Source of the DNA: Ignavibacteria bacterium
GTDB lineage: Bacteria; Bacteroidota; Ignavibacteria; UBA10030; SZUA-254
Direction of reading: 5' to 3'
Assembly (NCBI GenBank): GCA_016178595.1
Contig: JACOSY010000017.1
Location: 1-37,513 of the forward strand
DNA: 37,513 nucleotides
Below are positions 336 to 36,414 of this stretch, piece by piece. Position 1 is the first letter of the stretch, and every line of letters starts with the position of its first letter. Under the pieces are notes generated by a model that was given only the letters and a program-made list of their open reading frames with translations, had not been told where the DNA came from and ran no database searches. A program made the translations under genes and the position numbers.

Positions 336-2195
336 ATGAAGAAGCTTAACGGCTTTTCCCTCCTCTACCTCGGAGTATGTATCGTATTGCTGCTGGTGGT
401 AGGGCAGAGTGGCTTGGCACAACAGATTCGGATCATTGCGACAGATGGCGTGGGTCAGGATACAGTCATTTTGGGTCTGAATGCTGCGGCGACAAACCAT
501 ATCGATCCAGGACTCGGGGAAGAGGAACAGCCGCCATTATCGCCGACATTCGATTACCGGTCGGTGAGCAATGGCCACACGGTAGGACGAGACACCTGCC
601 TCCAGGGTCTGAAGAAAAATTTTCATCGGTTGGTCACGGTCACGCAGACCGATCAGTGGAAGCTTCAATTCCAATCCGATGCAAATGGTAGTGCAGTCAA
701 TTTCTCATGGACGATTCTGAATTCGGGCGCAAACGGCTGGGAATTGGAAGATGGCCAGGCCGGGGCGGTATTTCCACCCGTCGACATGGTTGCAAACTCC
801 TCTTTTGTGCACCCGGTCAACAGTACCGATCCGCAAGTTGCCTATGTGAACTATTACGATGGAACGAAACTGCGCACAGCAACCTCGCACGAGCTTGCCG
901 ATGCGCCTGATGCCAAAGGTCACAACGCAGGCAAGCCGATCAAGCAGAAGGCCGACAAGTACCTCCAGTGCTTCACCATCAGCGGTGGCGCAGTCCATAC
1001 AACATTGCACCTGGTGTTTAGCAGTGTCGTAGTATATTTCCCGTCCCTCGGCGGTTTTGGGGGCGCGGCGAACGCTGATCTAAAGGGAAAGGACTGGGTC
1101 CTGAGTGGCGGTGCTCATGGAGACGCTGTGATTATCTGCGTATGGGTGAAGGGCGGCAAGGCCCCGAGTGTGGCCTACGGCTGGGATGCTGATCCTCCGA
1201 AGAATAAGACCGCAGTGCTGAAGCCCGGCGGGGTTGCACTCAATCCGATGCCCAACTGGTGGAACGTGATCATTGAGTTGTTCAACCAGGGTGTTTTCCC
1301 TGACTTGCTGCACAACGGCAAAGTTGCCGGCCTCCATGTCGGAATCGGTAATCCACCGGACGACAAGACAGGAAAACTTGTCTATCATCCGAAGTATGGC
1401 GACATTTATAAGACCCTTTTCAAGAAGGGGACGTATCAGGATAACTCGCCTGACTGCTTGAGCGGTTTCGATCCGGACCGAGTTGCGAAGATGATCACGA
1501 AGCCGCAGAAGAGCCTGCCGCCCGATAAGCACAACAACAAGCTGTTGGGCGATGCCGTTGCCTTCCGCGTTAACCTTGGGATCGATCAGGCGGCAAAGGT
1601 CTCTGGTGCTGCTGGAATTCTCGCCACGCTGAAGTACAAACATCCCGGCAATCCATTTGATGGAAAGACCGTCAGCGCGATCAATGATTCAATTGATGCT
1701 ATCATGGCTTGCGGCGGCACGTTTACACCGGCGGAGCTTGATGTACCGCTTGCTGAAATCAATAATGCCTTCAGCGGCTCCTTTGACACCGTTGCATGGG
1801 CCGGGAAACTGATCTTGAAGGGCGTGAAAGCTATCGGCAAGAGCGGCGTTCTCTATCGTAACAGCCTTGAAGCTGTGCCGGTGATGGCGTTGCCGCCGTT
1901 CCGTGCCGAGACGCAGACGCCGTTGGCGTTCAAGCTCGAACAGAACTACCCGAACCCCTTCAACCCGACGACGACGATCGACTTTACGCTGCCGGCTGAA
2001 GGGATCGTGACGCTGAAAGTCTACAATCTCCTGGGACAGGAAGTGGCAACGCTTCTGAACCATGAGCAAATGGATGAGGGTGACCAGACGGTTGACTTCG
2101 ACGCGTCCGCGCTCTCCTCGGGTGTCTACTACTACCGCCTCATCCTCAACGACGGCGAATTCACTGCCGTCAGGAAGATGATGCTGCTGAAGTAA
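336..2195 (+). CDS. T9SS-exported protein of unknown function with module A before the sorting domain
   Basis: This 619-residue protein starts with a clear signal peptide (M-K-K then a hydrophobic stretch to about residue 28, cleavage near L-A-Q). The body, about residues 30-390, is one I do not recognise; part of it (about 95-190) reads as beta-rich and secreted. Residues about 398-505 hold module A (H-N-N-K-L-L-G-D-A-V-A-F-R-V-N-L), shared with the proteins ending at 22460, 28165 and 30571. The P-D-C-L-x-x-F-D stretch just before it resembles P-S-C-L-D-T-F-N in the protein ending at 22460, so the homology extends upstream. Residues about 531-619 are a full T9SS type A sorting domain with the F-D-A-S flavour and an R-K-M-M-L-L-K tail. 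ATG 336 follows a GTGAGG-like site. It probably forms its own transcription unit, flanked by hairpins on both sides. Export via T9SS is confident; the role is unknown. Confidence 0.9.
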   Translation: MKKLNGFSLLYLGVCIVLLLVVGQSGLAQQIRIIATDGVGQDTVILGLNAAATNHIDPGLGEEEQPPLSPTFDYRSVSNGHTVGRDTCLQGLKKNFHRLVTVTQTDQWKLQFQSDANGSAVNFSWTILNSGANGWELEDGQAGAVFPPVDMVANSSFVHPVNSTDPQVAYVNYYDGTKLRTATSHELADAPDAKGHNAGKPIKQKADKYLQCFTISGGAVHTTLHLVFSSVVVYFPSLGGFGGAANADLKGKDWVLSGGAHGDAVIICVWVKGGKAPSVAYGWDADPPKNKTAVLKPGGVALNPMPNWWNVIIELFNQGVFPDLLHNGKVAGLHVGIGNPPDDKTGKLVYHPKYGDIYKTLFKKGTYQDNSPDCLSGFDPDRVAKMITKPQKSLPPDKHNNKLLGDAVAFRVNLGIDQAAKVSGAAGILATLKYKHPGNPFDGKTVSAINDSIDAIMACGGTFTPAELDVPLAEINNAFSGSFDTVAWAGKLILKGVKAIGKSGVLYRNSLEAVPVMALPPFRAETQTPLAFKLEQNYPNPFNPTTTIDFTLPAEGIVTLKVYNLLGQEVATLLNHEQMDEGDQTVDFDASALSSGVYYYRLILNDGEFTAVRKMMLLK

Positions 2196-2213: not shown

Positions 2214-2249
2214 CCTGGGATCTTACGGCGACAGCTTGAAGATCCCAGG
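2214..2249 (+). terminator. Hairpin after the 336-2195 gene
   Basis: A perfect 11-bp inverted repeat (CCTGGGATCTT 2214-2224, AAGATCCCAGG 2239-2249) with a 14-nt loop lies 19 nt after the stop codon. There is no T-tract, so termination strength is uncertain. I see no gene in the rest of the 2196-2446 gap. A near match to the Bacteroidota -7 element (TAGATTTT, 2368-2375) lacks a convincing upstream TTG. Confidence 0.5.
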
Positions 2250-2446: not shown

Positions 2447-3016
2447 ATGAAAAGCTTCATGTTTGTTGCAACACTCGCTGTCGTTCTCAGCCTGAGCTTG
2501 AGCAGTTCTGCATTCGCAGGCGGTTATGCTTCAGCGTCGGCACTGCTCACCTTTACGGTAGATCATGCCTTGACAATCACAGGTCAGGAAGTTGACTACA
2601 CGGGGTTAACGCAGGGCCAGTGCTACACCTTCACAACCGACGGATACATTCAGCCGGCGCCGGAAGGCTGGGACAATACCGCACCGATACCTCCGCTTCT
2701 TTATACGGTTGATGATGCCAACCCGAACGATGTCGTCGAGTTTGACTTCATTCTTCCCAACCAAGCGGTATCGGTCGGTACCCCCGGCATCGGTAGCATT
2801 GCCCTTTCTGACTGGGTGTTTGGGTACGATCCTGCGGCAGCGGGTGTGAGCTTCACCGTTCAGCAGGCGATTACCGGTCCGGTTACCGCGCAAGTCAATC
2901 CGGGCGGCGGTATTTTTCTAGGATGGAAGGCGTGCGTCGGTGCAGGAGTTGAAGGTGCTACCGATACATTCCAGGCGGACGTGATTCTCGAAGCACATTA
3001 TGTCACAACGCCGTAA
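2447..3016 (+). CDS. Secreted pilin-like subunit of a chaperone-usher locus (DUF4402-like)
   Basis: This 189-residue protein has a textbook signal peptide (M-K-S-F start, hydrophobic core, cleavage near A-F-A-G at residue 24). The mature part is short, beta-rich and almost free of charged clusters. It has two cysteines (C59 and C163) that could form a disulfide. The ending (about 155-186: F-L-G-W-K-A-C-V through Q-A-D-V-I-L-E-A-H-Y) resembles the last strands of DUF4402-type subunits, whose usual form is F-x-V-G-G-T-L then G-T-F-x-V-T-V-x-Y; this match is from memory. The next two genes encode a PapD-like chaperone and an usher, which strongly suggests that this is the structural subunit they secrete. 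A strong Shine-Dalgarno (AAGGAG 2434-2439, 7 nt from ATG) fits high expression. It has no T9SS sorting domain. Confidence 0.75.
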   Translation: MKSFMFVATLAVVLSLSLSSSAFAGGYASASALLTFTVDHALTITGQEVDYTGLTQGQCYTFTTDGYIQPAPEGWDNTAPIPPLLYTVDDANPNDVVEFDFILPNQAVSVGTPGIGSIALSDWVFGYDPAAAGVSFTVQQAITGPVTAQVNPGGGIFLGWKACVGAGVEGATDTFQADVILEAHYVTTP

Positions 3017-3080
3017 TCGAGCGTAGCCCCTCTGCGGTGGTGTGTCTATCGTAAGGGTAGTGCTCAGATATACTCTACTA

Positions 3081-3156
3081 GTGCAAAGAGGAAGTCTGAT
3101 TGTTTGAGACGCTATAATAAGTTGAGGGTCTCAGTGCAGGCTTCCTCTTTTTGCAC
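3081..3156 (+). terminator. Large hairpin between subunit and chaperone genes, candidate attenuator
   Basis: The outer arms at 3081-3098 (GTGCAAAGAGGAAG...) and 3137-3156 (...CTTCCTCTTTTTGCAC) pair over about 17 bp with a two-T bulge. An inner 6-bp stem (TGAGAC 3105-3110 with GTCTCA 3128-3133) extends it. It lies 64 nt after the subunit stop and 110 nt before the chaperone start. The T-run is inside the closing arm. It could partially terminate transcription or protect the upstream mRNA, so that the subunit is made in excess of chaperone and usher. Confidence 0.6.
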
Positions 3157-3266
3157 TGTGTGTTGTGTAAGGAGGAATAAGAATTATCGGTGAAGAGTGA
3201 TCATTGATTGGTATGCTCTGATAATCGTGCTACACTCATGTTTGTGAAAGGAGACCTCTGTACGGT

Positions 3267-4133
3267 ATGGTTGCAGGCCTAAGTAAGAGAAGGTGGACGC
3301 GAAGTATATGGAGTGGTCTGTTCGTCGTCGTTTGTTCATTGACCACGGCGACAAGTGGGGTGAAAGTTTCACCTGTCCAACTCCTCGTCGTTGCGCCATC
3401 GCGAAGTGCGGCACTAAGAGTTCATAACCCTTCCGATAAGGAAGAACGGGAAATGTGGATGGAGGTGAAGTACGGGTACCAGACGACGGATGAGAAAGGC
3501 GCTCCGCACGTCGTGATCGTTCCGGCAGATTCCGGCGGAGCGAAATCAGCGGCACGATGGATTCGAGCATACCCTGAACGGTTCGTGTTGCAGCCGAATG
3601 CTACGCAAATTGTACGCGTCGTAGCGTCAGCGCCGCCAGATTTGCCCGACGGAGAATACTGGGCTCGAATCGTTGTCTCATCAAAGCCTCTCGGCGCACG
3701 GCGGATCAAGGATGCAGGCGCCTCACCGCTGCCGCGTGGGGGATTTATCACGATAGAAAAGGCAGATCTACCGTTTCATTATAGGAAAGGAAAGTTAACT
3801 TCAGGACTTGTTCTACGGAATGTCAATACGACGCCCGGAAAAGACAGTATGCGTGTTGCCGTCGATCTTCAGAGGATTGGAAATACATCATACTGGGGAA
3901 CTTTGACCTGTCGATTACGGGATCATTCGGGGAATGTCGTGAGCGTGTACAAGAAAAATCTTGTTGTGTACCAGGACGAGACATACGTATACTCCCTCCG
4001 GACAGCGAATGTTCCCGCAGGGGAATATACGTTCGAATTGAATTTCAGCAACAAGGAAGGAAGCGACATGGTCAGACAATATGCCGCTGAGAGTGAGGCA
4101 GTGAATTATTCCACGAAGATTAATTTACAGTAG
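3267..4133 (+). CDS. PapD-like periplasmic pilus chaperone
   Basis: This 288-residue protein begins with a basic n-region and hydrophobic core (signal peptide to about residue 31). The first domain starts with V-S-P-V-Q-L-L-V-V-A-P and A-A-L-R-V-H-N-P-S (about 33-55), the typical opening of PapD-fold chaperones. Around residues 105-135 it has the G1-strand region (E-R-F-V-L-Q-P-N-A-T-Q-I-V-R-V-V followed by L-P-D-G-E-Y-W-A-R-I), which in this family zips into pilin subunits by donor-strand complementation. The second half (about 165-280) would be the C-terminal Ig-like domain. In this family the chaperone folds subunits in the periplasm and delivers them to the usher. An AAGGAG-like site (about 3247-3253) precedes ATG 3267. 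Only 6 nt separate its stop from the usher gene, so the two are probably co-translated. Divergent from gamma-class chaperones; the family call is confident from motif plus context. Confidence 0.85.
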   Translation: MVAGLSKRRWTRSIWSGLFVVVCSLTTATSGVKVSPVQLLVVAPSRSAALRVHNPSDKEEREMWMEVKYGYQTTDEKGAPHVVIVPADSGGAKSAARWIRAYPERFVLQPNATQIVRVVASAPPDLPDGEYWARIVVSSKPLGARRIKDAGASPLPRGGFITIEKADLPFHYRKGKLTSGLVLRNVNTTPGKDSMRVAVDLQRIGNTSYWGTLTCRLRDHSGNVVSVYKKNLVVYQDETYVYSLRTANVPAGEYTFELNFSNKEGSDMVRQYAAESEAVNYSTKINLQ

Positions 4134-4139
4134 CTTCCG

Positions 4140-6752
4140 ATGAAGAAGCATTCTTCTTTACTGGCGGTGTGTTCTCAAATCCTTCTCGGATCGTTGTTCT
4201 GCACCACGATCTGGGCACAGAGTGTGGCGAAAGGTCCGCGTCCTGGCGAGCAAACGATTCCTGTTGTACTCTCAGTTCGGGGAGCTGGCAGCGTAGAATT
4301 TGACGTCATTGCCCGAAACGAGAAATACTATCTTCCCCTTGTCACGATTTTCAAGTTCCTGCGCGTCAGCGCGGAATACGATGCACGTACCGGCGTTGTC
4401 GAAGGCTTTTTCCTGTCGCCCGACAACCGATATCGTATTGATGCAGGCAGCAATACATTTAGAATACGTGATACCAGCGGGGCTATTTCAACAGATGACT
4501 ACGTGGTGCAGCCACAGGATTTTTATTTACGGGAAGACCTCTACCAGCAATTCTTCGGTATTGAGTTGAAGTATCGTCCGGTCAGACTCGACGTTTTACT
4601 GCGCACAAAATTACTGCTCCCCGTTTTCTTGGAACGGAAACGGGAGATGGCAAGAAATGAACAGCTCTTGCTGCAAGGGTATCAGCCAGAGGTAGGGTAT
4701 TCCCTGCCGCATACGCATCCCTTGTTAGCAGGCGGTAGACTCGATTACCGATTTGTTACCTCGAGTTCGTCACGTATAGCGCCACAATATCGCTATTTCC
4801 TCGATCTCGGCAATCGGTTTCTCGGCGGCGATTTGAAGACAAATCTTCAGGGCGTTATTAATCGTCCCATTAAGTCCGAGGATTTCTTAATCAGTTGGCA
4901 ATACGCGTTTCTCGATCAATCGTTCATCCGGCAAATTAATCTCGGTGATATGTTCTCAACGGGGCTTCGAGCGCAGAGGATATTTGGCGGTGAGATTACA
5001 AATCGGCCTGCGCCGCGGCGTTTGCTGTTTGCCGAAGACGAGTTTAGCGACTTCATTGGAGTCAATCATACCGTTGATTTCTACAAAGGAGCGTCCGTCA
5101 TTCAGTCTGAATCTTCAGACCCTGCCGGACTGTACCGCTTCCAGAGCGTCTTACCGTACGGCATTTCGAACTACAGCGTCAAAGAATATGATCAATATGG
5201 CGCCGAACATGTCTCAGAATACCGGATTATTGTTCCTGTATCGATGTTGCCTCCCGGCGAGGTGGAGTACAGCCTCATGGGCGGAACAATACGTCCCGGC
5301 AGGCATGATTGGAACAGCACGTTCAACATGTCATGGGGAGTGAGTAATAGACTTACTATGGGCGGCGGCATCGATTATCTCGGGCAAAGCGGTATTCATA
5401 CCAGATTCTTTCCATCGCTGACCTCTACCGCTCGTGTTACTGATATTGCCGTACTCGATGCAACGATCGCGCCGAGTGCATACTCCACTGTGGTGTTCTC
5501 TGTCTTCTACCCTTCGACGCTGGGTGGTTCGATTTCATATACGAGATACGGTACGAATTCTTTCTATAATTCTCTGAATGCACTTGATGATGCGATATTG
5601 ACGTTCAATGTGCCTATTCGCCTGCCTTCACAGCCGTTGCTTTTTAGCTTTATTCTTCGGCAGACGAGTCTCACAGATCGGCGGATCCGAGGATTGCAGG
5701 CGACCTCAAGTTTTGGAACCGGTCTTTTCGGAGTTCGGTTGAACGAGATCTTCTCATGGGATCAGGATGCATTTTCTTCATCGAGACTGACTCAGCATAA
5801 TAGCAGAGTGACTCTGACGACGGTTCTTCCGAGGGGTATTTTCCTGCGCGGCACTATGACCTATGACCATTTGCTAAATAATGTGCCCGATCTTCGAATT
5901 ACCGCGTCGCTTCCGCTCAAGCAAAATGCACTTGTGAGCGCGTTCGTTGATCGAGACTATATTTCACACATTTCCACGTATGGTCTTCAACTGACCTACT
6001 ATTTTCCGTTCTCCGTTTTCCGCGGCTCGGTTACTCGAGAAGGAGGCGACGGGACGTATGGCTTTACGGGAAGTATCGCAGGATCGGTCGCTTTCGTGGG
6101 TGAGAGAGGCCGGTTCGTCTTTGACAACTTGAATCAAGTCGGGTTTGGAAGCGTGTTTGTGAATCCTTTTGTAGATCTGAATGGAAACGGTGCACAAGAC
6201 GCTGGTGAGGAGCAGATTGCAAAAGCACGGTTTGGCTCTCGGGTGGGCATTGAGGGAGGGTCTCAGGTGAAATATGAGTCTCCTCTCGGCTACCGGATGA
6301 AAAGAACTCTTCCCTATGAATGGTATACGGTTACGCTCGATTCTCTTTCGCTGGAGGATCCCAAGTGGGTGCCGAGGTTCCAGACGTTTGCAGTTTTTTC
6401 CGAGCCGGATCAAGTACGCGTTGTAGATCTACCGATAGTTGTTGGTGGAATTGTGCGCGGCACCGTACAGGAACAAACATCGACTGGACTGAAGCCGGTC
6501 GACGGGATGAATGTACGCATCGAATCGGAAGAGATAGAGAAAGGGTTCCCCAAATATAAGAAAGCCATGAGAACGTTCTCAACGGGGGAATTCGAGTTTC
6601 TCGGTGTACCACCCGGGCGTTATACGGTTACTGTTAATGAAGATCAGGCAGCGACTCTTGGCCGCGTTGTCGAGAAGCCCAGACTGTCAATAGAAGTTGC
6701 CGTAAAACCAGAAGGTGATGAAGTCAATGGCGTCAACTTCTTGCTCAAGTAA
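4140..6752 (+). CDS. Outer-membrane usher, divergent archaic/sigma-like class
   Basis: This 870-residue protein has a signal peptide (cleavage near I-W-A-Q, residue about 26). An N-terminal periplasmic region (about 35-160) is followed by a long beta-barrel region (about 190-650) with alternating aromatic strands. Within it, residues about 313-365 look like the usher plug (G-A-S-V-I-Q, then G-L-Y-R-F-Q-S-V-L-P-Y-G-I-S-N-Y and V-K-E-Y-D-Q-Y-G). The plug is followed by the characteristic G-x-I-R-P-G-R and W-G-V-S-N-R-L-T-M-G-G-G stretch. The C-terminal part has V-D-L-N-G-N-G-A-Q-D-A-G-E-E (about 678-692), as in archaic ushers. It ends with a carboxypeptidase-regulatory-like beta sandwich (about 765-870, P-P-G-R-Y-T-V-T-V). 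The role is translocating and assembling subunits at the outer membrane. It lies directly after the chaperone gene with no obvious Shine-Dalgarno. It could be called a generic TonB-like regulatory-domain protein if context were ignored, but barrel plus plug plus chaperone favours usher. Confidence 0.82.
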   Translation: MKKHSSLLAVCSQILLGSLFCTTIWAQSVAKGPRPGEQTIPVVLSVRGAGSVEFDVIARNEKYYLPLVTIFKFLRVSAEYDARTGVVEGFFLSPDNRYRIDAGSNTFRIRDTSGAISTDDYVVQPQDFYLREDLYQQFFGIELKYRPVRLDVLLRTKLLLPVFLERKREMARNEQLLLQGYQPEVGYSLPHTHPLLAGGRLDYRFVTSSSSRIAPQYRYFLDLGNRFLGGDLKTNLQGVINRPIKSEDFLISWQYAFLDQSFIRQINLGDMFSTGLRAQRIFGGEITNRPAPRRLLFAEDEFSDFIGVNHTVDFYKGASVIQSESSDPAGLYRFQSVLPYGISNYSVKEYDQYGAEHVSEYRIIVPVSMLPPGEVEYSLMGGTIRPGRHDWNSTFNMSWGVSNRLTMGGGIDYLGQSGIHTRFFPSLTSTARVTDIAVLDATIAPSAYSTVVFSVFYPSTLGGSISYTRYGTNSFYNSLNALDDAILTFNVPIRLPSQPLLFSFILRQTSLTDRRIRGLQATSSFGTGLFGVRLNEIFSWDQDAFSSSRLTQHNSRVTLTTVLPRGIFLRGTMTYDHLLNNVPDLRITASLPLKQNALVSAFVDRDYISHISTYGLQLTYYFPFSVFRGSVTREGGDGTYGFTGSIAGSVAFVGERGRFVFDNLNQVGFGSVFVNPFVDLNGNGAQDAGEEQIAKARFGSRVGIEGGSQVKYESPLGYRMKRTLPYEWYTVTLDSLSLEDPKWVPRFQTFAVFSEPDQVRVVDLPIVVGGIVRGTVQEQTSTGLKPVDGMNVRIESEEIEKGFPKYKKAMRTFSTGEFEFLGVPPGRYTVTVNEDQAATLGRVVEKPRLSIEVAVKPEGDEVNGVNFLLK

Positions 6753-6848
6753 TCAAGATATTTTTTTTCTGTTGTATGTTTCGCGGCAGTAGTTTTTGGA
6801 TGAATGGAGTTGATATGTGCAGAGAGCAGACTGATAAAAAATGGATTT

Positions 6849-6855
6849 GGGGAGG
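6849..6855 (+). promoter_or_regulatory. Strong Shine-Dalgarno that sets the GTG start at 6863
   Basis: GGGGAGG at 6849-6855 sits 7 nt before GTG 6863, and the codons from there give a compact signal peptide (K-F-L-I-F-F-V-C-L-A-W). Upstream in-frame ATGs at 6776, 6800 and 6815 would add 16-29 mostly polar residues in front of it. Confidence 0.6.
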
Positions 6856-6862
6856 ACGTATC

Positions 6863-9124
6863 GTGAAATTTTTGATATTCTTTGTGTGCCTTGCTTGGTC
6901 ATATCGGGCTGTTGCTCAGGATATCCTTCCTCCTTACCCCGACAGTCTCGATGATGAGCAACTGCTTACCGATCCCGATAGCGCAAGGAATATAGACTCT
7001 TTCGGTAGACTTGCAAACCAAACCGTTGCAAGTGAAACAAGCTGGCATTGGCAAAATCCTTATCCGACTGGCAATTCTCTCTGGGGTCTGGGACTCGTCT
7101 CAAAAGATACCATTATGGCGGTCGGGTTTAACCAAACAGTTCTTCAAACGTTCAATGGAGGATCGTCGTTTTATGTCTCGTATGCGAATGCTGGTCCGCC
7201 GAAACTACTCACGTCCATCAAAGTCATGGGTGCAGCAACAGCGTATGCTGCGGGGACATCCGGAACTGTCTTGAAGACCACAGACGGCGGGAATAGCTGG
7301 TCGAACCTGATCGTAGGTATCGCACAGGATCTTTACAGCATAGACTTCCTTCATCGGGATAGCGGGTGGGTTGCCGGTATTAATCACGATACAGGTTGGG
7401 TTGCCGGTAACTCAGGAGCCATACGCCGGACGACCAATGATGGTGCTACTTGGCAGTTTCAGTTTTCACATGTGTCACGGCGTCTCTTAGACGTTTATTT
7501 CGTGAACCGAGATTCCGGGTGGGCGGTGGGGGAACATGGAACCATTGTTGCTACTACAAACGGCGGCCAAACGTGGTTCACTCAAACATCTCCTGATACA
7601 GGTGCGCTTAGTGCCGTTCAGTTCTTCGATAACAAAATCGGTTGGGCAGTTGGGGGAAACGGTGTAGTACTCAATACGGTAAATGCGGGGGCGGTATGGT
7701 TTATTGCCTCACATGTCCCCTCAACGTGGGGCGCAAATGATGTTTTTTTTGTTACCAAGTCGAGAGGATGGATTGTCACGGGAGACGGTGGAATTTTCTC
7801 AACAACAACAGGTGGATCTTCCTGGACACAACAGTATACTGTAGATAATGCGCTAACTTCCGTCAAGTTTGCTAATGATTCCACAGGATGGGTTGTTGGA
7901 TATCGAGGTGAGGTACTTAAGACAACGAACCGCGGCAATACCTGGATTAGTTTTCATGATGAAGCCGAAGGATCCTTTGCGTCCGTTTCATTTCCGGATT
8001 CGGATGTGGGTTGGGCCGTCGGTTACTCCGGTGTCATCGTTCATACTACTGATGGTGGATTTAGTTGGCAGCCGCAATCTTCCGGGGTAGACAAGCGATT
8101 GACAACTGTGCAGTTCGTGGATCCATTGCATGGCTGGGCGTGCGGCGCCAACAGTACCGTACTGAACACGACAGATGGGGGGAATACGTGGCATCCTATT
8201 GCGATGAACTTGACCAGCGCAAAATACCAGCTTGTCGCACTATACTTTTTGAACCAGGATACGGGTTACGTCTTAACGAATCGCGGTAGAGTGTATAAGA
8301 CGACCGATGGCGGGGTCTTTTGGGTCGTTCAAAAGTTGCCTCTTAGCTGGAACGTTTACGCGGTACAATTTTATAATGCATCCGTCGGATGGATCGTCGG
8401 GTCGCATGGAACGGTCTTAATTACACATGACGGTGGTAATCACTGGACAGGGCAGGTGTCTGCGACTCTTGAGAGATTGTATTCTGTTGCTTTTGTCGAC
8501 ACCATGACCGGTTTTGCCGTGGGATCGAGGGGGACCATCGTCAAGACGGTTGATGGTGGAATGACCTGGTCTACGTTGGTTTCAGGAACGGCGCGGACAC
8601 TACGGTCGGTCAGCGCTCTTGACTCACTCACTGCTTGGGTGGCGGGCGATTTCGGTACAATTCTTACTACCTCAGATGGCGGTGCTACGTGGCAAAAACA
8701 ATTTTCCGGAACGTGGCGCCAGTTGAATGCGATAACGATCCATTCTGCTGGACTCGGATGGGCGGTTGGACAAAGTGGTACGATTCTTCAGTATGGTGAC
8801 GTCTCCGTATTTGCGAATGCACCGAGGATTCTATCTCGACAGGAAATCCATGTTCAGAACTATCCGAATCCGTTCAACCCCTCGACGATGATTACGTTTA
8901 CGCTGCCAAGCGCGGGTCTCGTCACGATTAAGATTTACAATATTTTGGGACAAGAAATCGCTACGTTAATTAGTGAACAACCGTTTGCCGCCGGCGTCCA
9001 GCGATTGGAATTTGACGCTTCTAATTCCGATCGAACAATGCTCGGGTCAGGTATCCTTTTCTACCGCGTCCTGATGGACAATGGAAAATATCAATCGACC
9101 GGTAAAATGATGCTCGTGAAATAA
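6863..9124 (+). CDS. T9SS cargo with Ycf48/BNR-like propeller repeats
   Basis: From GTG 6863 this is a 753-residue protein; a longer form starting at ATG 6776 has 782. The signal peptide ends near A-V-A-Q. The body holds about 13 repeats of roughly 44 residues, each ending in variants of V-L-K-T-T-D-G-G-N-S-W and containing G-W-A/V-V-G. This is the Ycf48-like / photosynthesis-assembly-factor-like beta-propeller repeat, which outside phototrophs is a generic secreted propeller. The last roughly 90 residues are a T9SS type A sorting domain (N-Y-P-N-P-F-N-P-S-T, F-D-A-S, K-M-M-L-V-K). It lies 110 nt after the usher gene and 20 nt before a second Ycf48-like gene, so it may be read with the chaperone-usher genes. 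Ligand and role are unknown; the name does not imply photosynthesis. It has neither of the two recurrent pre-CTD modules. Confidence 0.88.
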   Translation: MKFLIFFVCLAWSYRAVAQDILPPYPDSLDDEQLLTDPDSARNIDSFGRLANQTVASETSWHWQNPYPTGNSLWGLGLVSKDTIMAVGFNQTVLQTFNGGSSFYVSYANAGPPKLLTSIKVMGAATAYAAGTSGTVLKTTDGGNSWSNLIVGIAQDLYSIDFLHRDSGWVAGINHDTGWVAGNSGAIRRTTNDGATWQFQFSHVSRRLLDVYFVNRDSGWAVGEHGTIVATTNGGQTWFTQTSPDTGALSAVQFFDNKIGWAVGGNGVVLNTVNAGAVWFIASHVPSTWGANDVFFVTKSRGWIVTGDGGIFSTTTGGSSWTQQYTVDNALTSVKFANDSTGWVVGYRGEVLKTTNRGNTWISFHDEAEGSFASVSFPDSDVGWAVGYSGVIVHTTDGGFSWQPQSSGVDKRLTTVQFVDPLHGWACGANSTVLNTTDGGNTWHPIAMNLTSAKYQLVALYFLNQDTGYVLTNRGRVYKTTDGGVFWVVQKLPLSWNVYAVQFYNASVGWIVGSHGTVLITHDGGNHWTGQVSATLERLYSVAFVDTMTGFAVGSRGTIVKTVDGGMTWSTLVSGTARTLRSVSALDSLTAWVAGDFGTILTTSDGGATWQKQFSGTWRQLNAITIHSAGLGWAVGQSGTILQYGDVSVFANAPRILSRQEIHVQNYPNPFNPSTMITFTLPSAGLVTIKIYNILGQEIATLISEQPFAAGVQRLEFDASNSDRTMLGSGILFYRVLMDNGKYQSTGKMMLVK

Positions 9125-9144
9125 CAGGAGTGGAGATCATCCGT

Positions 9145-11358
9145 GTGAGAATACTACTTCCACTGACGTACAAGATCGTCCGCCGGACGCTGCCCGTTTT
9201 GCTGCTCTGGTACTTTCCTGTACCGATGTTCTCGCAAAGTGGCTGGTTCTGGCAAAACCCTCTTCCTCAGGGTAACGATCTCTACGGTGTTCAAGCGTTT
9301 GCAACGGGAACGATTGTCGCTGTCGGTTCTGCCGGTACGGTAATGACTTCGACCAATTACGGCCTGAGTTGGGATGTGCAGCGCTATGTCGGCGGTGCCT
9401 TCGGAACATTTCGCTCGATATCATTTTTCTCTCCTGCGTCCGGAATTATTGTTGGCGACTCCGGTTCCATCTTCACATCGAGTGATGGTGGAGCGCGGTG
9501 GATACGACGATCGAGCCCGGTGAATCACATTGATCTCAACTACGTTACGTCCATCGATGCGAACCATGACGTTGCAGTGGGGGATAGCGGTACGATCCTG
9601 AGAACAACGAACGGCGGTTTGTCGTGGCTCAATGCTATTTCTGGAACTCGAAGTAACTTATGGTCAGCCTACTTCCCCGTTACAGGAGTTGGTTATACCG
9701 TCGGTGAAACCAATACGATTTTGAAGTCAATCGACTTTGGTACAAACTGGGTTCGGCTCGATAGTACGGCACCGAGGAATTACTTTTCGGTTTTCTTTAC
9801 CACACAAGATTCCGGCTGGGTGGTTGGATCGCAAGGGATTATACGCCGCACAACCGATGGCGGCATGACATGGATCTCTCAAGCATCGCATTCGGCGTTT
9901 GCACTCTATGCTCTTACCTTTACGAACAAATCCAATGCCTTTGCAGTGGGAGATGCACGGATAATTTCATCACACAACGGAGGCGAGTTCTGGGACGCGG
10001 AGTCGCTTGATGCGACCAATGGTGCACGGGGTATTTTCTTTACCGATACATCCTCCGGTTGGATAGCCGGATTACACGGTGAGATCAAACGGACTGTCGA
10101 CGGCGGTGCTACGTGGTCAAGCTTGACACGCGGTAGCCGGGTGAATCTTAATGCGATTAGCATTCCTGCGCAGGATCAAACTTATGCGATTGCCGTTGGT
10201 GATAAGGGAATCGTCATGCGCACCACGAATGCCGGCGCAGAGTGGACGACATCATCGACACCTACAACGAAAGCCCTTCGCTCCGTCTATTTTATCTCCT
10301 CGAACGCGGGAATTGTTGTCGGTGATAATGGCGTGATTCTGCAGACGATTGACGGTGGGCAAGCTTGGAATAGCATTCAATCTGATAGTTCTAATCTCAC
10401 ATCGGTCTATTTTGCCGATGGTTTGAACGGCTGGGCAGCCGGATTTGATGGGGCGGTTTTCCAGACGACAAATGCAGGTTCAGTATGGTCCCGACGATCA
10501 ATTTCTGGAATCGATTCTTCCACGATCGTCACCAGTGTATTCTTTGTCGATCCAGAATATGGATGGATGTCGGCCAATTTTGGACCGACGCGGAGTTATA
10601 CAAGGTTTCTGAAGACTACGGATGGAGGTGTTACATGGAATGTTGCTGATGCAGATTCCATGTTCCCAGTCCTTGCGATCTACTTCGCCAATAGGAACGT
10701 CGGATGGGCAGTAGGAAAATCGGCGAACCCTCTCAAAACCACAGACGGAGGACAGAGTTGGTTCACTCAATATCCGCCGTATCATCCCAAAACGAGCTAT
10801 CAGAGCGTCCGTTTTATCGACGAAAATACAGGATGGGCAGTCGGTACGAATGGAAATGTTATTAAGACAACGAATGGAGGTAAGAACTGGTACAGTCAAC
10901 TGAGCGGAACGAACAATCTTCTCTCTGATATTGCGATGTTTGATTCAGCGACAGGATGGATTGTTGGCGCGAATGGTGCAATATTGAAAACCACCGATGG
11001 CGGTGGACCGCTTCCGGCTCCGCCGCCGCCACCTCCTTCAAAACCACCCATTGGCCTCTCGCCAACTACGCCGAATCCTTTCATACCATCGAAGAATGAG
11101 TATGTGTATCTGCCGTTCAGTGTCGTTACGCCGGGCGATATTTCTCTGCGCATTTATGATATTCTTGGCAGGCTGATCCTCGCGCACGATCTGGGCTACT
11201 TCGGTGCTGGTACGTACGACGAAAGTGAGAATCCCGGTCTTACTCCAACATGGGATGGTAAGAACCAGGATGGCGTTCCAGTTGTGAGCGGGATCTATTT
11301 CTATAAGTATATCACAAGAGATTTTATCTCTACCGGCAAGTTGATACTCATTCGGTAG
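9145..11358 (+). CDS. Second Ycf48/BNR-repeat cargo with proline linker and variant sorting domain
   Basis: GTG 9145 is chosen because TGGAG (9131-9135) sits 9 nt upstream and the product opens with M-R-I-L-L-P-L then a hydrophobic core ending at F-S-Q. An in-frame GTG at 9130 would add five residues. About 14 propeller repeats of 40-55 residues end in motifs such as I-L-R-T-T-N-G-G-L-S-W. The mature N-terminus (W-F-W-Q-N-P-L-P-Q-G-N-D-L) parallels that of the previous gene (W-H-W-Q-N-P-Y-P-T-G-N-S-L), pointing to a tandem duplication followed by divergence. The repeats are followed by a proline-rich linker (about residues 625-645). The sorting domain is variant: the usual N-Y-P-N-P-F-N-P is T-P-N-P-F-I-P-S, with a W-D-G-K-N-Q-D-G turn and a K-L-I-L-I-R tail. 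T9SS export is still likely. Role unknown. Confidence 0.87.
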   Translation: MRILLPLTYKIVRRTLPVLLLWYFPVPMFSQSGWFWQNPLPQGNDLYGVQAFATGTIVAVGSAGTVMTSTNYGLSWDVQRYVGGAFGTFRSISFFSPASGIIVGDSGSIFTSSDGGARWIRRSSPVNHIDLNYVTSIDANHDVAVGDSGTILRTTNGGLSWLNAISGTRSNLWSAYFPVTGVGYTVGETNTILKSIDFGTNWVRLDSTAPRNYFSVFFTTQDSGWVVGSQGIIRRTTDGGMTWISQASHSAFALYALTFTNKSNAFAVGDARIISSHNGGEFWDAESLDATNGARGIFFTDTSSGWIAGLHGEIKRTVDGGATWSSLTRGSRVNLNAISIPAQDQTYAIAVGDKGIVMRTTNAGAEWTTSSTPTTKALRSVYFISSNAGIVVGDNGVILQTIDGGQAWNSIQSDSSNLTSVYFADGLNGWAAGFDGAVFQTTNAGSVWSRRSISGIDSSTIVTSVFFVDPEYGWMSANFGPTRSYTRFLKTTDGGVTWNVADADSMFPVLAIYFANRNVGWAVGKSANPLKTTDGGQSWFTQYPPYHPKTSYQSVRFIDENTGWAVGTNGNVIKTTNGGKNWYSQLSGTNNLLSDIAMFDSATGWIVGANGAILKTTDGGGPLPAPPPPPPSKPPIGLSPTTPNPFIPSKNEYVYLPFSVVTPGDISLRIYDILGRLILAHDLGYFGAGTYDESENPGLTPTWDGKNQDGVPVVSGIYFYKYITRDFISTGKLILIR

Positions 11359-13505: not shown

Positions 13506-16500
13506 ATGAGTGTTGCGACCATGAGGGGATGGACCTTCCTATTCATTACTCCAATAATTTTGTTGATGACAGGCATGTCGACACCGGCATCCGGGCAGAT
13601 TTCAATAACCGCTACCGGTGCATCGTATTCGGAAAATTTTGATGGGATGGGATCAGCGGGTACATCTTATCTTCCTGGTTGGACTGGGATTCGATACGCC
13701 GGTTCAGGCACAATTGGTGCAGTATTAAATCCTGTGGTTACTGCAGGGAGTGCTACTTCTGGCGGTGTGTACAATGTAGGTTCGTCTGGTTTGCCGGATA
13801 GAGCTTTAGGGACACTTGCATCAGGTACAACAGTTCCAAGGATTGGAGCGCAATTCGTCAATAATACCGGCGTGACGATTACAACCATTAATCTTGCCGG
13901 AGTTATGGAACAGTGGAGGTCGGGGAGTAACAACACCGTGAACGAAGTTAACGCGTTCGCATACAGTTTTGACGCGACAGATCTTTCAACCGGAAGCTGG
14001 ACAAGTGTAACTGGAATGGATTTGGTGGAAAAGTTGACGACTACGACCACCGCTGCCGCAGTAGATGGTAACGCCGCTGCCAATAAAACGAATATAAGTG
14101 CAACGATAAACGGATTAAATTGGGCGAACGGATCGACGATGTGGATCCGCTGGAGCGATGTTGATAATACCGGCAGCGATGCAATATTGGCAATTGACGA
14201 TTTAAGCATTTCGTTCAATATCGTCCTCCCTCCACCGGGAAGAGGGACGGCATCCATTACTCCGTCACTTGCTCAGGGAGCGGTCAGCCAAGCGCTCACT
14301 GTCATCGTACGCGGCCAATCGCCCTACACCCTTACCAACACTAACGTTGTTGTTCCTCCTATCTTTGCCTGGTCTCTTTCGACGGGCGATATTTCTCTGA
14401 CGGGGGGTGGAAGCCCTTCAACATCTATCTCCGGTGATACCGTGAAGATCTCCGGCATGACGGTTGCCGGCACGGACAGTATCCAGATTACGATCAATAA
14501 TATTACTCCAGCCGATTCAACCGATACATTCACTTTTTTTACGCAGACCGGTACGCAGCCCGATTCGATTCTTGATCTTCCGGTTCAACCGACTGTCCTT
14601 GTCTATGGCACGCCTCACGCGATCGGCGATATTAAAGCGAACGATGTCAATGGCGTCCCGATCTGGTCGGGGAAATATGTCACGATCCTCGGTGTTGTTA
14701 CCGTTGGAGCAGAGTTTGGCAGTCCCTCCTATATTCAGGACGCGACCGGCGGTATTGCGGTATTCGGCGTGATAACTTCTTCAGAGGTTACGATCGGCGA
14801 TGAAGTTGAATTGGTGGGAGCCGTCAGTCCGTTTAACGGTCTGACAGAACTTAATAGTCCCACGCTCATCAAAAAAGTCAGTTCCGGAAATGTCGTCGAA
14901 CCGCTGGTATTGAACTGTGGTCAGGTTAATGGTGACGGTCAGGGAGGTGTCGAACAATATGAAGGAAGGCTCGTTCGTATCAATCAGGTTATTGTAACAA
15001 GCTTGTCAGGCGCCTCTATTCCGAACTGGACGGTCACCGGCTCCGGCACGAATTATCGGTTGCGCGATGCGGTCGATACGCTCGAAATCCGTGTCGATAA
15101 TAATGTCAATTTCGCGAATACTCCCGCGCCGCAGAGTTCGTTCGATGTCATCGGTGTGGTGAGTCAATTTAAAAATACATCACCCTTCATCGGCGGTTAC
15201 CAATTAATGCCCCGCTCGACCGCCGATATTGTCTCACAGGGTCCGATCTTTGCGACGTCACCGGTGGAAAGCAATCTCCAGCCAACGTCGATGCGAATCA
15301 GCTGGACAACTATCAACAACGGCACGACGCGCGTTCGCTACGGATTGACGACCGCCTACGAACTCGGCCTCGTCTCTCCCGACAATACGCTCGGATTGAG
15401 CCATGCGGTCGATCTGACCGGTCTCATGCCGGCGACGGTTTACCATGTGCAGGCATTCACCGACGGCGGCGCGAACGATACGAGTTTTGCCGGCGACCTT
15501 GTCGTCAGCACCTCTTCACCCCCCGCGTCGACCGGACAGATGAACGTCTATTTTAACAAGAGCGTCGATAATTCGGTTTCGCTTGGCGAGAACGCGCTTG
15601 GCAATCAGAACATGATCGGTCTGATCACGAACCGGATCGATAACGCGCACCGGTCGATCGATATCGCGCTCTACAGTCTCAGCGCCACGGCATACGGCGA
15701 CGTGATCGCGACCCATCTCGTTTCGGCGAAAAACCGTGGCGTCTCGATCCGCGTCATCTGCGAAGCCGATAACCAGAATGCCGGCGGCAGTTCCTTCCCG
15801 ACGCTCTCCGCGAACGGTATCCCGGTCATCAACGACAAGTTCGACGCGGTCTGGTTCGGCGCCGGGCTGATGCACAATAAGTTCTTCGTCTTTGACGGAC
15901 GCGGCGGCGCGCCGGAAAGCGTCTGGGTCTGGGGCGGCTCGTGGAACCCGACCAATTCCGGTACCAGCCAGGACCGGCAGAACTCGATCGAAATTCAGGA
16001 TCAGGCACTCGCCGGCGCCTATACAATGGAATTCGATCAGATGTGGGGGAGTTCCACCGAGACTCCGAACGCATCGACGTCCCGCTTTGGCGCGCGGAAG
16101 CTTGATATCACCCCACATAATTTTATGATCAACGGCGTTCCGGTCAGCTCCTATTTCAGCCCGTCCGATCATACGACCATGCACATTACCAATATGATCG
16201 CGAAAGCACAGCATTCGGTATCGACCTGCATCCTGACCTACACACGGAAGGATATCGCCGATACGATGATTGTCCGGAAGAATGCCGGCAGTAAAGTACG
16301 CGTTGTCGTCGATAATAATACCGATCAGGGCAATCAGTATTCCTATCTCCAGAGTAACGGGATCGACATCCACCTCAAAGGGGGTAGTGGCTTGCTGCAT
16401 CATAAATATACGACAATCGACGCCGATCAACCGACTGGCCCGTCGTATATCGAAACCGGTTCACATAACTATTCAAGCAGTGCGGAAAACTCCAACGATG

Positions 16501-18410
16501 AAAACTCGCTCATTCTCCAGAGCAAGCGGATCGCGAACCTCTATCTGCAGGAATTCGCCGCCCGGTACTACGAAGCCGGTGGCACTGATTCGATCCATGT
16601 GTCGGTCGCTCCGGGTTTCTCGCTTTCAAAGTTGAGCATCGACTTCGGCACGGTTATCGTCAGCAACTCGAAGCCGGATAGCTTTGTCGTCAGGAACAAC
16701 GGCACGGCTCCACTTACGATTTCCAGCGTGACTTCCACCAATCCGCGGTTTAGTGTAAGTCCAGGGAATGCAAATGTCTCTGCGTCGGATTCCCAAAAGT
16801 TCTACGTGACGTTTTCCCCAACAACGGGCACCCCGGAGAACGGAAGCATTGTCCTGATCAATGATGCGGCAGGCAGCCCGGACACGGTTGCCGTTCAAGG
16901 ACTCGGCGATACCGGCTTGCATCCACAATTTTCCGTTACGCCATCAAACCTGAACTTTGGCACGCATCCGATCGGCAGCAGTTCGACGGATAGCTTCACT
17001 GTCTCGAATGCCGGAACCAGCACGCTCCATCTTTCCAGTATTACCTCCAGCAATTCACTGTTTACCGTCTCAACTGCAAATGATACTGTGGTTGCATCGG
17101 GATCGAAAGTTTTCACGGTAACATTTGCACCGACGGTTCCCGGAGCTCCTTCTGGAAATATCATCATGCTGCACGATGCGCCCGGTAGTCCGGATACGGT
17201 GACTGTGCAGGGGACGGCCATCGATACGCCGATTACGAAATCTCTTTCATTGCTCGGAGGATGGAATATGATTTCGCTTCCATCCTACGTCAGTAATGGA
17301 AAGCGAGATAGTGTCTTTCCGACTTCCATATCGCACGCGTTTGTGTATAATCATTCCTATATGCTGGCGCCGAACGATAGTCTCATTCCGGGCGTTGGAG
17401 AATGGCTCAAGTTTGATTCAGCTCAGAGCATCTCCGTGTTAGGGCTACGGATATCGGTATTAGACATTCCGGTAAGCAACAGTTGGAATCTGATCGGTTC
17501 CATCTCGTCTTCGGTAGATGTGAGTTCGATCTCTTCTATTCCGGCCGGCCTCGTCTCCGGAGCGACATTCTACGGCTACAGCGACACCGGCTATTTTTCC
17601 ACAACGACCCTCGATCCTGGGAGAGCGTACTGGGTGAAGCCGAACGGTGCAGGCTCGCTCCATCTCTTTTCTGCTTCAACTGCTGCGCCGCTAAAGAGGG
17701 GGAACGAACCTACGATTCCTCACAACTTCAATACGATTACGGTAACAGACGCGAAGGGAAGGAGTCGGACGCTTTATATTGGTGAGAGCGGGAACTCGCC
17801 AATCAATCTCGATAAGTTCGAGATGCCTCCAACGCCACCGGAAGGTGCATTTGATGTCCGATTTGGATCGGGCCGAACTGTGGAAACGCATGCCCGACGG
17901 CTTGAAAAGCCCGTACAATTCCCTGTTCTGCTTCAGATGCAATATTACCCGATTATAATAGAATGGAGTATTGACACTAAGGACACAAAGTATTATACTT
18001 TAACAGTGGATGCAGGCGCGGGTTTCTCGAGTAAACGACTGATAGGGAAAGGGCAAACCACACTCAACGATCCACGCTCGACGAAGATGCTTCTAACGGT
18101 AGCGCAAGAAATGCCGTTGCCCGAGCGGTTTTCATTGGACCAGAACTATCCCAATCCCTTTAATCCGAGCACGGTTATTCCATTCGCTCTTCCGCATACG
18201 GCGAGAGTATCGATTGCAGTGTATAACGTGCTTGGCGAGATGGTCCAAGCGTTGGCCTCGGATATCGAGTATGAAGCGGGTAGCTACACCGTTTCGTTCG
18301 ATGCCTCGCGGTTATCAACAGGAGTATACTATTACCGGCTCACTGCCGTCGAAGTGGGTAACGAGCATGTTCAGTTTCATGATGCCAAAAAACTTTTGCT
18401 AATCAAATAA
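13506..18410 (+). CDS. Giant T9SS cargo: ExeM-like N-terminus, OB fold, Fn3, PLD-type phosphodiesterase, two ASH domains, module B
   Basis: This 1634-residue protein has a signal peptide to about residue 30. Domains in order: an N-terminal domain typical of ExeM-like secreted nucleases (about 35-245, E-N-F-D then D-R-A-L-G and Q-W-R); an Ig-like stretch (245-345); an OB-fold region (about 368-575, G-V-V-T then Y-I-Q-D-A-T-G-G-I); and a fibronectin III domain (578-677). A phospholipase D superfamily unit (678-1030) follows, with two complete HxKx4D motifs: H790-N-K...D797 and H965-H-K...D972. Then come two ASH/choice-of-anchor-D domains (about 1038-1240), module B (1245-1535) and a T9SS sorting domain (1544-1634). 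Both HKD motifs are intact, so phosphodiesterase activity is likely; substrate could be DNA, RNA or phospholipid. The ExeM/OB/PLD mix favours a secreted nuclease. GC content changes sharply along the gene. ATG 13506 has GAGGG 3 nt upstream; ATG 13521 is an alternative. Confidence 0.9.
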   Translation: MSVATMRGWTFLFITPIILLMTGMSTPASGQISITATGASYSENFDGMGSAGTSYLPGWTGIRYAGSGTIGAVLNPVVTAGSATSGGVYNVGSSGLPDRALGTLASGTTVPRIGAQFVNNTGVTITTINLAGVMEQWRSGSNNTVNEVNAFAYSFDATDLSTGSWTSVTGMDLVEKLTTTTTAAAVDGNAAANKTNISATINGLNWANGSTMWIRWSDVDNTGSDAILAIDDLSISFNIVLPPPGRGTASITPSLAQGAVSQALTVIVRGQSPYTLTNTNVVVPPIFAWSLSTGDISLTGGGSPSTSISGDTVKISGMTVAGTDSIQITINNITPADSTDTFTFFTQTGTQPDSILDLPVQPTVLVYGTPHAIGDIKANDVNGVPIWSGKYVTILGVVTVGAEFGSPSYIQDATGGIAVFGVITSSEVTIGDEVELVGAVSPFNGLTELNSPTLIKKVSSGNVVEPLVLNCGQVNGDGQGGVEQYEGRLVRINQVIVTSLSGASIPNWTVTGSGTNYRLRDAVDTLEIRVDNNVNFANTPAPQSSFDVIGVVSQFKNTSPFIGGYQLMPRSTADIVSQGPIFATSPVESNLQPTSMRISWTTINNGTTRVRYGLTTAYELGLVSPDNTLGLSHAVDLTGLMPATVYHVQAFTDGGANDTSFAGDLVVSTSSPPASTGQMNVYFNKSVDNSVSLGENALGNQNMIGLITNRIDNAHRSIDIALYSLSATAYGDVIATHLVSAKNRGVSIRVICEADNQNAGGSSFPTLSANGIPVINDKFDAVWFGAGLMHNKFFVFDGRGGAPESVWVWGGSWNPTNSGTSQDRQNSIEIQDQALAGAYTMEFDQMWGSSTETPNASTSRFGARKLDITPHNFMINGVPVSSYFSPSDHTTMHITNMIAKAQHSVSTCILTYTRKDIADTMIVRKNAGSKVRVVVDNNTDQGNQYSYLQSNGIDIHLKGGSGLLHHKYTTIDADQPTGPSYIETGSHNYSSSAENSNDENSLILQSKRIANLYLQEFAARYYEAGGTDSIHVSVAPGFSLSKLSIDFGTVIVSNSKPDSFVVRNNGTAPLTISSVTSTNPRFSVSPGNANVSASDSQKFYVTFSPTTGTPENGSIVLINDAAGSPDTVAVQGLGDTGLHPQFSVTPSNLNFGTHPIGSSSTDSFTVSNAGTSTLHLSSITSSNSLFTVSTANDTVVASGSKVFTVTFAPTVPGAPSGNIIMLHDAPGSPDTVTVQGTAIDTPITKSLSLLGGWNMISLPSYVSNGKRDSVFPTSISHAFVYNHSYMLAPNDSLIPGVGEWLKFDSAQSISVLGLRISVLDIPVSNSWNLIGSISSSVDVSSISSIPAGLVSGATFYGYSDTGYFSTTTLDPGRAYWVKPNGAGSLHLFSASTAAPLKRGNEPTIPHNFNTITVTDAKGRSRTLYIGESGNSPINLDKFEMPPTPPEGAFDVRFGSGRTVETHARRLEKPVQFPVLLQMQYYPIIIEWSIDTKDTKYYTLTVDAGAGFSSKRLIGKGQTTLNDPRSTKMLLTVAQEMPLPERFSLDQNYPNPFNPSTVIPFALPHTARVSIAVYNVLGEMVQALASDIEYEAGSYTVSFDASRLSTGVYYYRLTAVEVGNEHVQFHDAKKLLLIK

Positions 18411-35557: not shown

Positions 35558-35923
35558 ATGGTGCAGCGTAAACAGAAAAAACCGAGTGTGGTAACACAAC
35601 ATTTTGTCAAACAAGAACTGAATGCCTTGGAAATTCGCTTGAATAATCGGTTGGATTTCAAGGAACAATCATTCAAAGAGTATGTCGTCAGCAGGTTATC
35701 GCCTGTTACGGATAGATTGAAAAATTTGGAATCGACGACGAATGATTTGACGACCGGCATTCAAGATGTACGCGGGGATATTGCTGCGTTAGGTGACAAA
35801 CTCGATATGTCTGCTAAAGGCATTGTCCAGATGGTTGAACGCTTGATAGGAATGCACAGCCGGATCGAAGAGAAAGTGGATAACCACGAGCAGCGCATCA
35901 CAACGCTGGAAGCAAGAGCATAA
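35558..35923 (+). CDS. Small coiled-coil protein, second paralog
   Basis: This 121-residue protein without a signal peptide has a Lys-rich start, then V-K-Q-E-L-N-A-L-E-I-R-L-N-N-R-L-D, the core E-Q-S-F-K-E-Y-V-V-S-R, a helical middle, and the conserved end D-N-H-E-Q-R-I-T-T-L-E-A-R-A. It lacks the long repeat stalk of the first paralog. A GGGGAGG site 8-9 nt before ATG 35558 is the same leader type (GGGAGGCAAC) as in the neighbours. No family is recognised. Confidence 0.75.
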   Translation: MVQRKQKKPSVVTQHFVKQELNALEIRLNNRLDFKEQSFKEYVVSRLSPVTDRLKNLESTTNDLTTGIQDVRGDIAALGDKLDMSAKGIVQMVERLIGMHSRIEEKVDNHEQRITTLEARA

Positions 35924-35970
35924 TACAGATTTCACTAACCAACAGTACACATTGCGGAGGCAATAGCGAT

Positions 35971-36336
35971 ATGGCAAAAAAAACAACGGCGAAACATGAA
36001 ATACTAACACACGATCTCTTGGTCAGAGAGCTTGTAGTGCTTGAGCAACGGCTTGATGCAAAGATCGATTCTGCAACGCAATCGTTCAAAGAGTATGTCG
36101 ATAGCCGATGGACGCAGCTCGATACAAAATTTACGCCGAGATTAGATACGATGGATTCACGTTTTGATACGATGGATTCGCGTTTTGATAAGATGGATTC
36201 GCGTTTCGAGAAGATGGATCGACATTTTGAAGAACTTGTCGGCATGTTTGTTCAGCAGGGTAAAAAGATTGACGCTTCGTTTGCGACACTCAACAACCAT
36301 GAACAGCGCATCACCACGCTGGAAGCACGATCTTAA
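35971..36336 (+). CDS. Small coiled-coil protein with M-D-S-R-F-D-x heptads, third paralog
   Basis: This 121-residue protein has L-L-V-R-E-L-V-V-L-E-Q-R-L-D-A-K-I-D, the core T-Q-S-F-K-E-Y-V-D-S-R, then four near-identical heptads (M-D-S-R-F-D-T/K) encoded by 21-bp tandem repeats around 36150-36225, and the end N-N-H-E-Q-R-I-T-T-L-E-A-R-S. The true heptad period here contrasts with the 18-residue period of the first paralog, so different stalks have been built on one frame. ATG 35971 follows GCGGAGGCAA. Cytoplasmic, function unknown. Confidence 0.75.
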   Translation: MAKKTTAKHEILTHDLLVRELVVLEQRLDAKIDSATQSFKEYVDSRWTQLDTKFTPRLDTMDSRFDTMDSRFDKMDSRFEKMDRHFEELVGMFVQQGKKIDASFATLNNHEQRITTLEARS

Positions 36337-36398
36337 ATCCGAAATCTACAATCTCGACGAGTCGAGTCGTCGACCAAAATCCGAAATTATATAATATG
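36337..36398 (+). repeat. AT-rich heptamer-type repeat tract, copy 1
   Basis: Just after the stop codon the sequence repeats the words AAATCCGAAAT, AATC and AAAATCCGAAAT. The same word family recurs after the next two coiled-coil genes (from 36773 and 37314). Confidence 0.5.
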
Positions 36399-36414
36399 GG
36401 AGGCAACAAAGAAT

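Follow-up and report, generated by a model that had tools for sequence, protein, structure and literature searches.

What do three adjacent genes assemble when they stand among genes for cargo of the type IX secretion system (T9SS)? The genes lie at 2447–6752 in a 37,513-nucleotide stretch of DNA (the window) from contig JACOSY010000017.1 of an Ignavibacteria bacterium (assembly GCA_016178595.1), and a preliminary description had read them as one subunit, one chaperone and one usher; all three open reading frames (ORFs) are present as stated. We conclude that they form a chaperone-usher assembly system, most likely making a homopolymeric adhesive fibre, a reading to which we assign a probability of about 85%.

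The usher, the chaperone and the pilin-like subunit

The 870-residue protein was modelled with AlphaFold2 (AF2) using 17 family sequences (mean predicted local distance difference test score, pLDDT, 79; predicted template modelling score, pTM, 0.56). A 24-strand barrel with a plug had been proposed as the test of its identity, and the model has both: DSSP finds six strands at residues 196–287, a plug region at 298–365 and a further 18 strands at 375–653. The plug thus lies between strands 6 and 7, which we take to be its place in FimD and PapC. All of the top 18 Foldseek rows are FimD or PapC (best E 1.6e-25; first non-usher 2.3e-6), and VIA ranks 1–15 are all ushers (Z 16.9–20.1; next Z 14.4). 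As both programs set ushers apart from other barrels, we reject the idea that the protein is simply another kind of beta-barrel. An hhalign comparison of the usher with FimD gives E 5.5e-5, and that with the EcpC usher gives 0.096, below significance. Two C-terminal features described earlier are there as well. The V-D-L-N-G-N-G motif occupies residues 678–684, with F677, D679 and N681 invariant among the 17 family ushers, and the carboxypeptidase-regulatory-like end is matched by Pfam CarboxypepD_reg-like at 27.2 bits, below the cut-off of 32.3, a match also given by 16 of the 17 family ushers (E≤0.1). Otherwise Pfam gives a weak Usher trace of 12.5 bits; the usher profile retrieved no usher from among solved structures, and a single-sequence usher search of the genome contigs gave no match. 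On the model, we firmly assign the protein to ushers of the FimD/PapC fold.

Support for the 288-residue protein as a PapD-like chaperone is weaker than that for the usher. PapD_N matches eight of 23 chaperone family members (E≤0.1, best 1.2e-4), and hhalign aligns the family with FimC (E 2.3e-4) through the strand that carries the proline and on to FimC YYRP, which the family replaces by HYR. NCBIfam names no chaperone across the family, and the chaperone profile, compared with solved structures, returns chance rows (plant toxin chains at E 0.085–0.98), with FimC at E 0.82. Pro103, aligned to the FimC proline region, is invariant in 23 of 23 members. At the column of the classical anchor arginine, presumably PapD Arg8, one of the 23 has R, and by this residue the chaperone appears not to be of the classical type. 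The portion of PMC4654587 available describes the proline as the only invariant residue of the chaperone superfamily, gives the anchor arginine of Caf1M as Arg20, and names a conserved Arg in strand F of domain 1 (CsuC Arg89) as a marker of archaic and alternative chaperones. By ungapped extension of the alignment, the marker column falls on W132, a position at which 20 of 23 members have W, and 22 of the 23 have R or K at the second residue after it; a weak alignment to EcpB (E 3.5e-4) ends just before this position.

Support for the small subunit is likewise weaker than that for the usher. Its AF2 model (15 sequences, mean pLDDT 82, with N-terminal residues 20–31 of low confidence and unplaced) weakly suggests a fold resembling chaperone-usher pilins: 37 of 50 VIA rows are such pilins or pilin domains, including CsuA/B and CupE. 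The pilin profile, compared with solved structures, returned unrelated rows only. The subunit had been called DUF4402-like, and DUF4402 matches some relatives, though not the window's own pilin: it is found in three of 15 close pilin relatives (E≤0.1) and 18 of 29 pilins of a wider set (E≤0.01). From the latter count we consider it very likely that DUF4402 is a pilin domain of chaperone-usher systems. A Tyr in the last six residues with a Gly 12 before it, which we take to be the classical pilin C-terminal motif, ends 142 of 227 short ORFs 5′ of chaperones (the Tyr being second from the end in 115 of the 142), as compared with seven of 122 other short ORFs and four of 315 long ORFs at the same loci.

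Several results weigh against these identifications. The model of the usher has an N-terminal domain at residues 36–155, but the VIA rows span about 184–870 and leave it outside the alignments. The window's own chaperone matches no PapD model in single-sequence Pfam and NCBIfam searches. Foldseek with the pilin model is weak, with FimF as the best row (E 5.1e-3) and none at E≤0.001, and the best VIA Z, 7.3, is below 8, a range that possibly reflects common arrangement only. The window's own pilin gives no match to DUF4402 (PF14352), and it keeps the C-terminal Tyr (Tyr185) but has Asp, not Gly, 12 residues before.

Gene order and distribution in the phylum

Conservation of the three-gene order, which the preliminary description had proposed seeking in related genomes, is found in the window's family and its sister family (f1 and f2; loci of the same family, being related, do not count as independent). 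One pilin ORF lies 5′ of the chaperone gene in the f1/f2 loci with sequence there, and the usher gene is directly 3′ of the chaperone gene in 73 of 73 loci tested, a count that leaves out genome G007, whose chaperone exists, and to which G165, G304 and G403 contribute two loci each. The usher is present in 22 of 60 relatives, including all 15 genomes of the window's own family. With the order kept and the usher in every own-family genome, the grouping is not due to chance, and we reject random neighbours as an explanation. The chaperone is present in 20 of the 60, being absent from two usher-bearing relatives because their contigs start inside the usher gene.

A hairpin lies between the pilin and chaperone genes in 13 of 14 f1/f2 loci (z −2.6 to −6.6; G009 is without one). 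Its stem is ungapped with 9–14 pairs, 14 being the longest sought, and in 10 of the 13 hairpin-bearing loci at least four of the eight bases that follow are T. Both this hairpin and the coupling to T9SS cargo 3′ of the usher, described below, are new here and had been missed earlier.

Features of the locus and its immediate neighbours (window coordinates)
Feature	Position	Strand	Details
T9SS cargo 5′ of pilin	336..2195	+	TIGR04183, 40.7 bits
Inverted repeat between upstream T9SS cargo and pilin, possible terminator	2214..2249	+	read by eye
Pilin-like subunit	2447..3016	+	189 aa; signal peptide; pilin-like beta sandwich; AF2, Foldseek, VIA
Putative N-terminal donor segment of pilin-like subunit	about residues 25–42		AF2 model
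Terminator-like RNA hairpin, pilin/chaperone intergenic	3080..3157	+	region 3014–3266, z −4.43
Putative PapD-like periplasmic chaperone	3267..4133	+	288 aa; PapD_N in family members, hhalign to FimC, invariant proline
Predicted outer-membrane usher	4140..6752	+	870 aa; AF2 model, Foldseek, VIA
Usher N-terminal domain	4245..4604	+	residues 36–155; secondary structure of model
Usher 24-strand barrel	4725..6098	+	residues 196–653; DSSP on model
Usher plug	5031–5234	+	residues 298–365, between strands 6 and 7; DSSP on model
Usher C-terminal CarboxypepD_reg-like domain	6453..6656	+	residues 772–839; Pfam
Ycf48/BNR-type beta-propeller with T9SS sorting domain	6776..9124	+	23 nt 3′ of usher; PSII_BNR E 1.9e-59
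Second Ycf48/BNR-type propeller, weak T9SS domain	9130..11358	+	5 nt 3′ of first propeller

Such a system had been expected to be uncommon in this phylum, which is not borne out. The usher profile matches 89 of 392 sampled phylum genomes at E≤1e-8, 29 of them weakly or partially, and the other 60 have an usher of the same family at E<1e-80. The other loci with this usher family mostly carry several DUF4402-type pilins, so that, judged from sequence, the window locus belongs to a widespread chaperone-usher clade, of which it forms a single-pilin branch. In a tree of 71 ushers (a quick method, with the phylum's ushers only and a midpoint root for drawing only) f1 and f2 form one branch (Shimodaira–Hasegawa-like approximate likelihood ratio test, SH-aLRT, 100), which stands beside f32/f39 and apart from the multi-pilin clades. 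Close ushers are also found in metagenome-assembled genomes named Ignavibacteriae, Ignavibacteria, Chlorobiaceae or Bacteroidota/Bacteroidetes bacteria.

The clade is thereby placed in a phylum that the available portions of two surveys, dating from 2015 and 2016, do not list: PMC4827864 gives ushers in Proteobacteria, Spirochaetae, Cyanobacteria and Deinococcus/Thermus, and PMC4654587 gives archaic systems in Proteobacteria, Cyanobacteria and Deinococcus-Thermus. PMC9452303, in the part available, speaks of archaic systems in a wide range of phyla and names none. Searches of the open-access literature brought up no account of this phylum's chaperone-usher system and no paper naming DUF4402; an earlier description of the system elsewhere is possible.

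The preliminary description saw no tip adhesin gene, and we found none; there is one recognisable pilin in the genome. Neither a second usher nor a second confident pilin was found in the source genome, which is 3.10 Mb and 96.9% complete, and a second pilin elsewhere in it was rejected, since the search returned nothing better than weak rows (best E 0.02 over 51 positions). Relative G012 has a second pilin-like gene away from its locus (L048), and one pilin per genome is therefore not general.

Other loci in the phylum may hold further variants. In G101, G151, G343 (f28) and f45/f55, separate weak plug and C-terminal matches in one ORF suggest more divergent ushers. A second, different locus, L047 (G044:C235), combines four short ORFs that are DUF4402-like with a GEYRSH-bearing chaperone and a 1205-residue ORF unmatched by the usher search, and may be another chaperone-usher type. 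L045 (G004:C124) and L046 (G005:C45) encode longer chaperone-like proteins, of 402 and 386 residues, with a charged tail and no adjoining usher.

Type IX secretion cargo around the locus

The earlier placing of the locus inside a T9SS cargo island is upheld by the sorting domains that its flanking genes carry. With TIGR04183 (cut-off 23), genes 336–2195 and 6776–9124 are both above the cut-off, the latter at 28.6 bits, and 9130–11358 is below it at 21.0 bits; genes at 11527–34307 also match Por_Secre_tail, some below its cut-off. A T9SS translocon is encoded in the genome, with SprA over its cut-off in an ORF of 2384 residues, and given the sorting domain and SprA, genes 336–2195 and 6776–9124 are predicted T9SS type A cargo. 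Further along the window, the gene at 13506–18410 encodes T9SS cargo in which PLD-like domains occur together with Ig domains of the HYDIN/ASH type, and at 35558–36774 there are three tandem short ORFs (121, 121 and 119 residues) ending NHEQRITTLEAR-A/S, evidently paralogues.

These surroundings raise the possibility of a hybrid organelle, in which T9SS cargo (336–2195, or the propellers at 6776–11358) would serve the chaperone-usher fibre as its adhesive or anchoring component, with two outer-membrane secretion systems building one structure. In the boldest form of this reading, the partners would be encoded in one operon with the fibre genes, and the clade would be native to the Bacteroidota/Ignavibacteria lineage. 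We think a hybrid organelle unlikely. In its favour, a Ycf48/BNR propeller with a T9SS domain is encoded directly 3′ of the usher in 13 of 13 f1/f2 loci, where T9SS tags, as in the other neighbour counts, come from a profile of the window's own cargo C-termini and not from TIGR04183. The gaps are −173 to 62 nt (−4 in G001 and −1 in G008), the −173 reflecting a start codon picked by the script. Of 18 f1/f2 relatives with an usher, 16 have their best genome-wide match to the window's first propeller directly beside it; in the remaining two the usher contig ends first. Usher-less genomes have no match as good (best 304 bits, versus at least 417 for the 14 best rows).

On the 5′ side, a T9SS cargo gene stands before the pilin gene in all 11 f1/f2 loci whose sequence extends that far; loci at contig edges (10 of the 73, five of them f1) are excluded from these upstream counts. 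Elsewhere in the phylum it is the first large gene 5′ of the pilins in 11 of 52 loci, though T9SS-domain genes number only five to at least 150 per genome; at G304a and G419, which lie outside the 11 of 52, upstream T9SS cargo was seen by eye and scored otherwise by the script. The upstream cargo gene overlaps the first pilin gene by 4 nt in G024 and in G331, a genome with only five T9SS-domain genes. According to Pfam, five of six upstream cargos (L163, L164, L167, L144 and L160) have Invasin_D3, Big_1 or glycine-rich domains, and the sixth (L120) has the sorting domain only. Small-to-medium genes, one starting MGRAMLII, recur directly 5′ of the pilins at f34 loci such as L108, L109 and L115, and at some of these loci they sit between T9SS cargo and pilins.

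The whole basis for a hybrid organelle is, however, gene neighbourhood. Outside f1/f2, propellers are absent near the usher, and 30 of 36 f34 loci have no directly adjoining T9SS cargo. Adjacency within f1 is less telling, as the cluster around the locus is largely T9SS cargo; synteny in this family covers much of that cluster, as far as about 34 kb. Pfam reports no pilin-type domain in the six upstream cargos.

A putative single-pilin fibre and its relation to known systems

We return to the chaperone-usher fibre, whose assembly route we infer from homology and anatomy. The pilin would be secreted by Sec and then held by the chaperone, and the usher would polymerise it by donor-strand exchange, each pilin using its N-terminal segment to complete the subunit that follows. 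A homopolymer is the most likely form of the fibre, since there is a single pilin and no two-domain adhesin was recognised; each subunit could then contribute to binding, in the manner of polyadhesins, and the fibre would be used in surface or cell-cell attachment. The intergenic hairpin probably yields far more pilin than chaperone-usher mRNA. The propeller genes are probably transcribed by read-through from the latter, so that surface proteins exported by the T9SS would be made together with the fibre.

It is improbable that the usher instead secretes the subunit for display singly or in very short oligomers, with no fibre. In favour of such display, there is a single small subunit, weakly conserved (21–33% identity to relatives) and without the Gly of the C-terminal motif. 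Against it, the plug, barrel and chaperone are of the kinds that assemble fibres, the N-terminal segment appears suited in length and place to act as a donor strand, and the conserved hairpin implies an excess of pilin. That the locus is decayed or inactive, as its minimal gene set could suggest, is very improbable, since the ORFs are intact and full-length own-family ushers, 28–43% identical to the window's, have no stops.

DUF4402 gains a likely role as a pilin domain, the single-pilin member offers a compact subject for work on fibre assembly, and cooperation of the type IX and chaperone-usher routes on one surface structure becomes testable.

The window locus has the usher and the chaperone by which a chaperone-usher pathway is recognised, and it can be set beside three kinds of known system. 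Classical single-subunit systems of the Caf1/Psa type have one subunit, one chaperone, one usher and no separate tip adhesin, and the window locus likewise has one of each gene. It differs in that its chaperone family does not keep the classical anchor arginine in the aligned column, in the C-terminal domain of its usher, in its phylum and in its T9SS cargo surroundings. Psa and Saf are polyadhesins according to the part of PMC9452303 available. Archaic (sigma) systems such as Csu resemble it in having a non-classical chaperone, in the match of the pilin model to CsuA/B and CupE, and in their wide spread beyond the gamma-proteobacteria, although the archaic-marker Arg of domain 1 is not clearly at the matching alignment position in the window's chaperone family. 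Csu comprises four subunits, one of them a tip adhesin (PMC4654587 and PMC9452303, in the portions available), whereas the window has a single pilin. The phylum's own DUF4402-pilin loci (f34, f58, f10, f49 and others) share the usher and chaperone families and their order, but usually have several pilins, an usher with extra C-terminal sequence and other neighbours.

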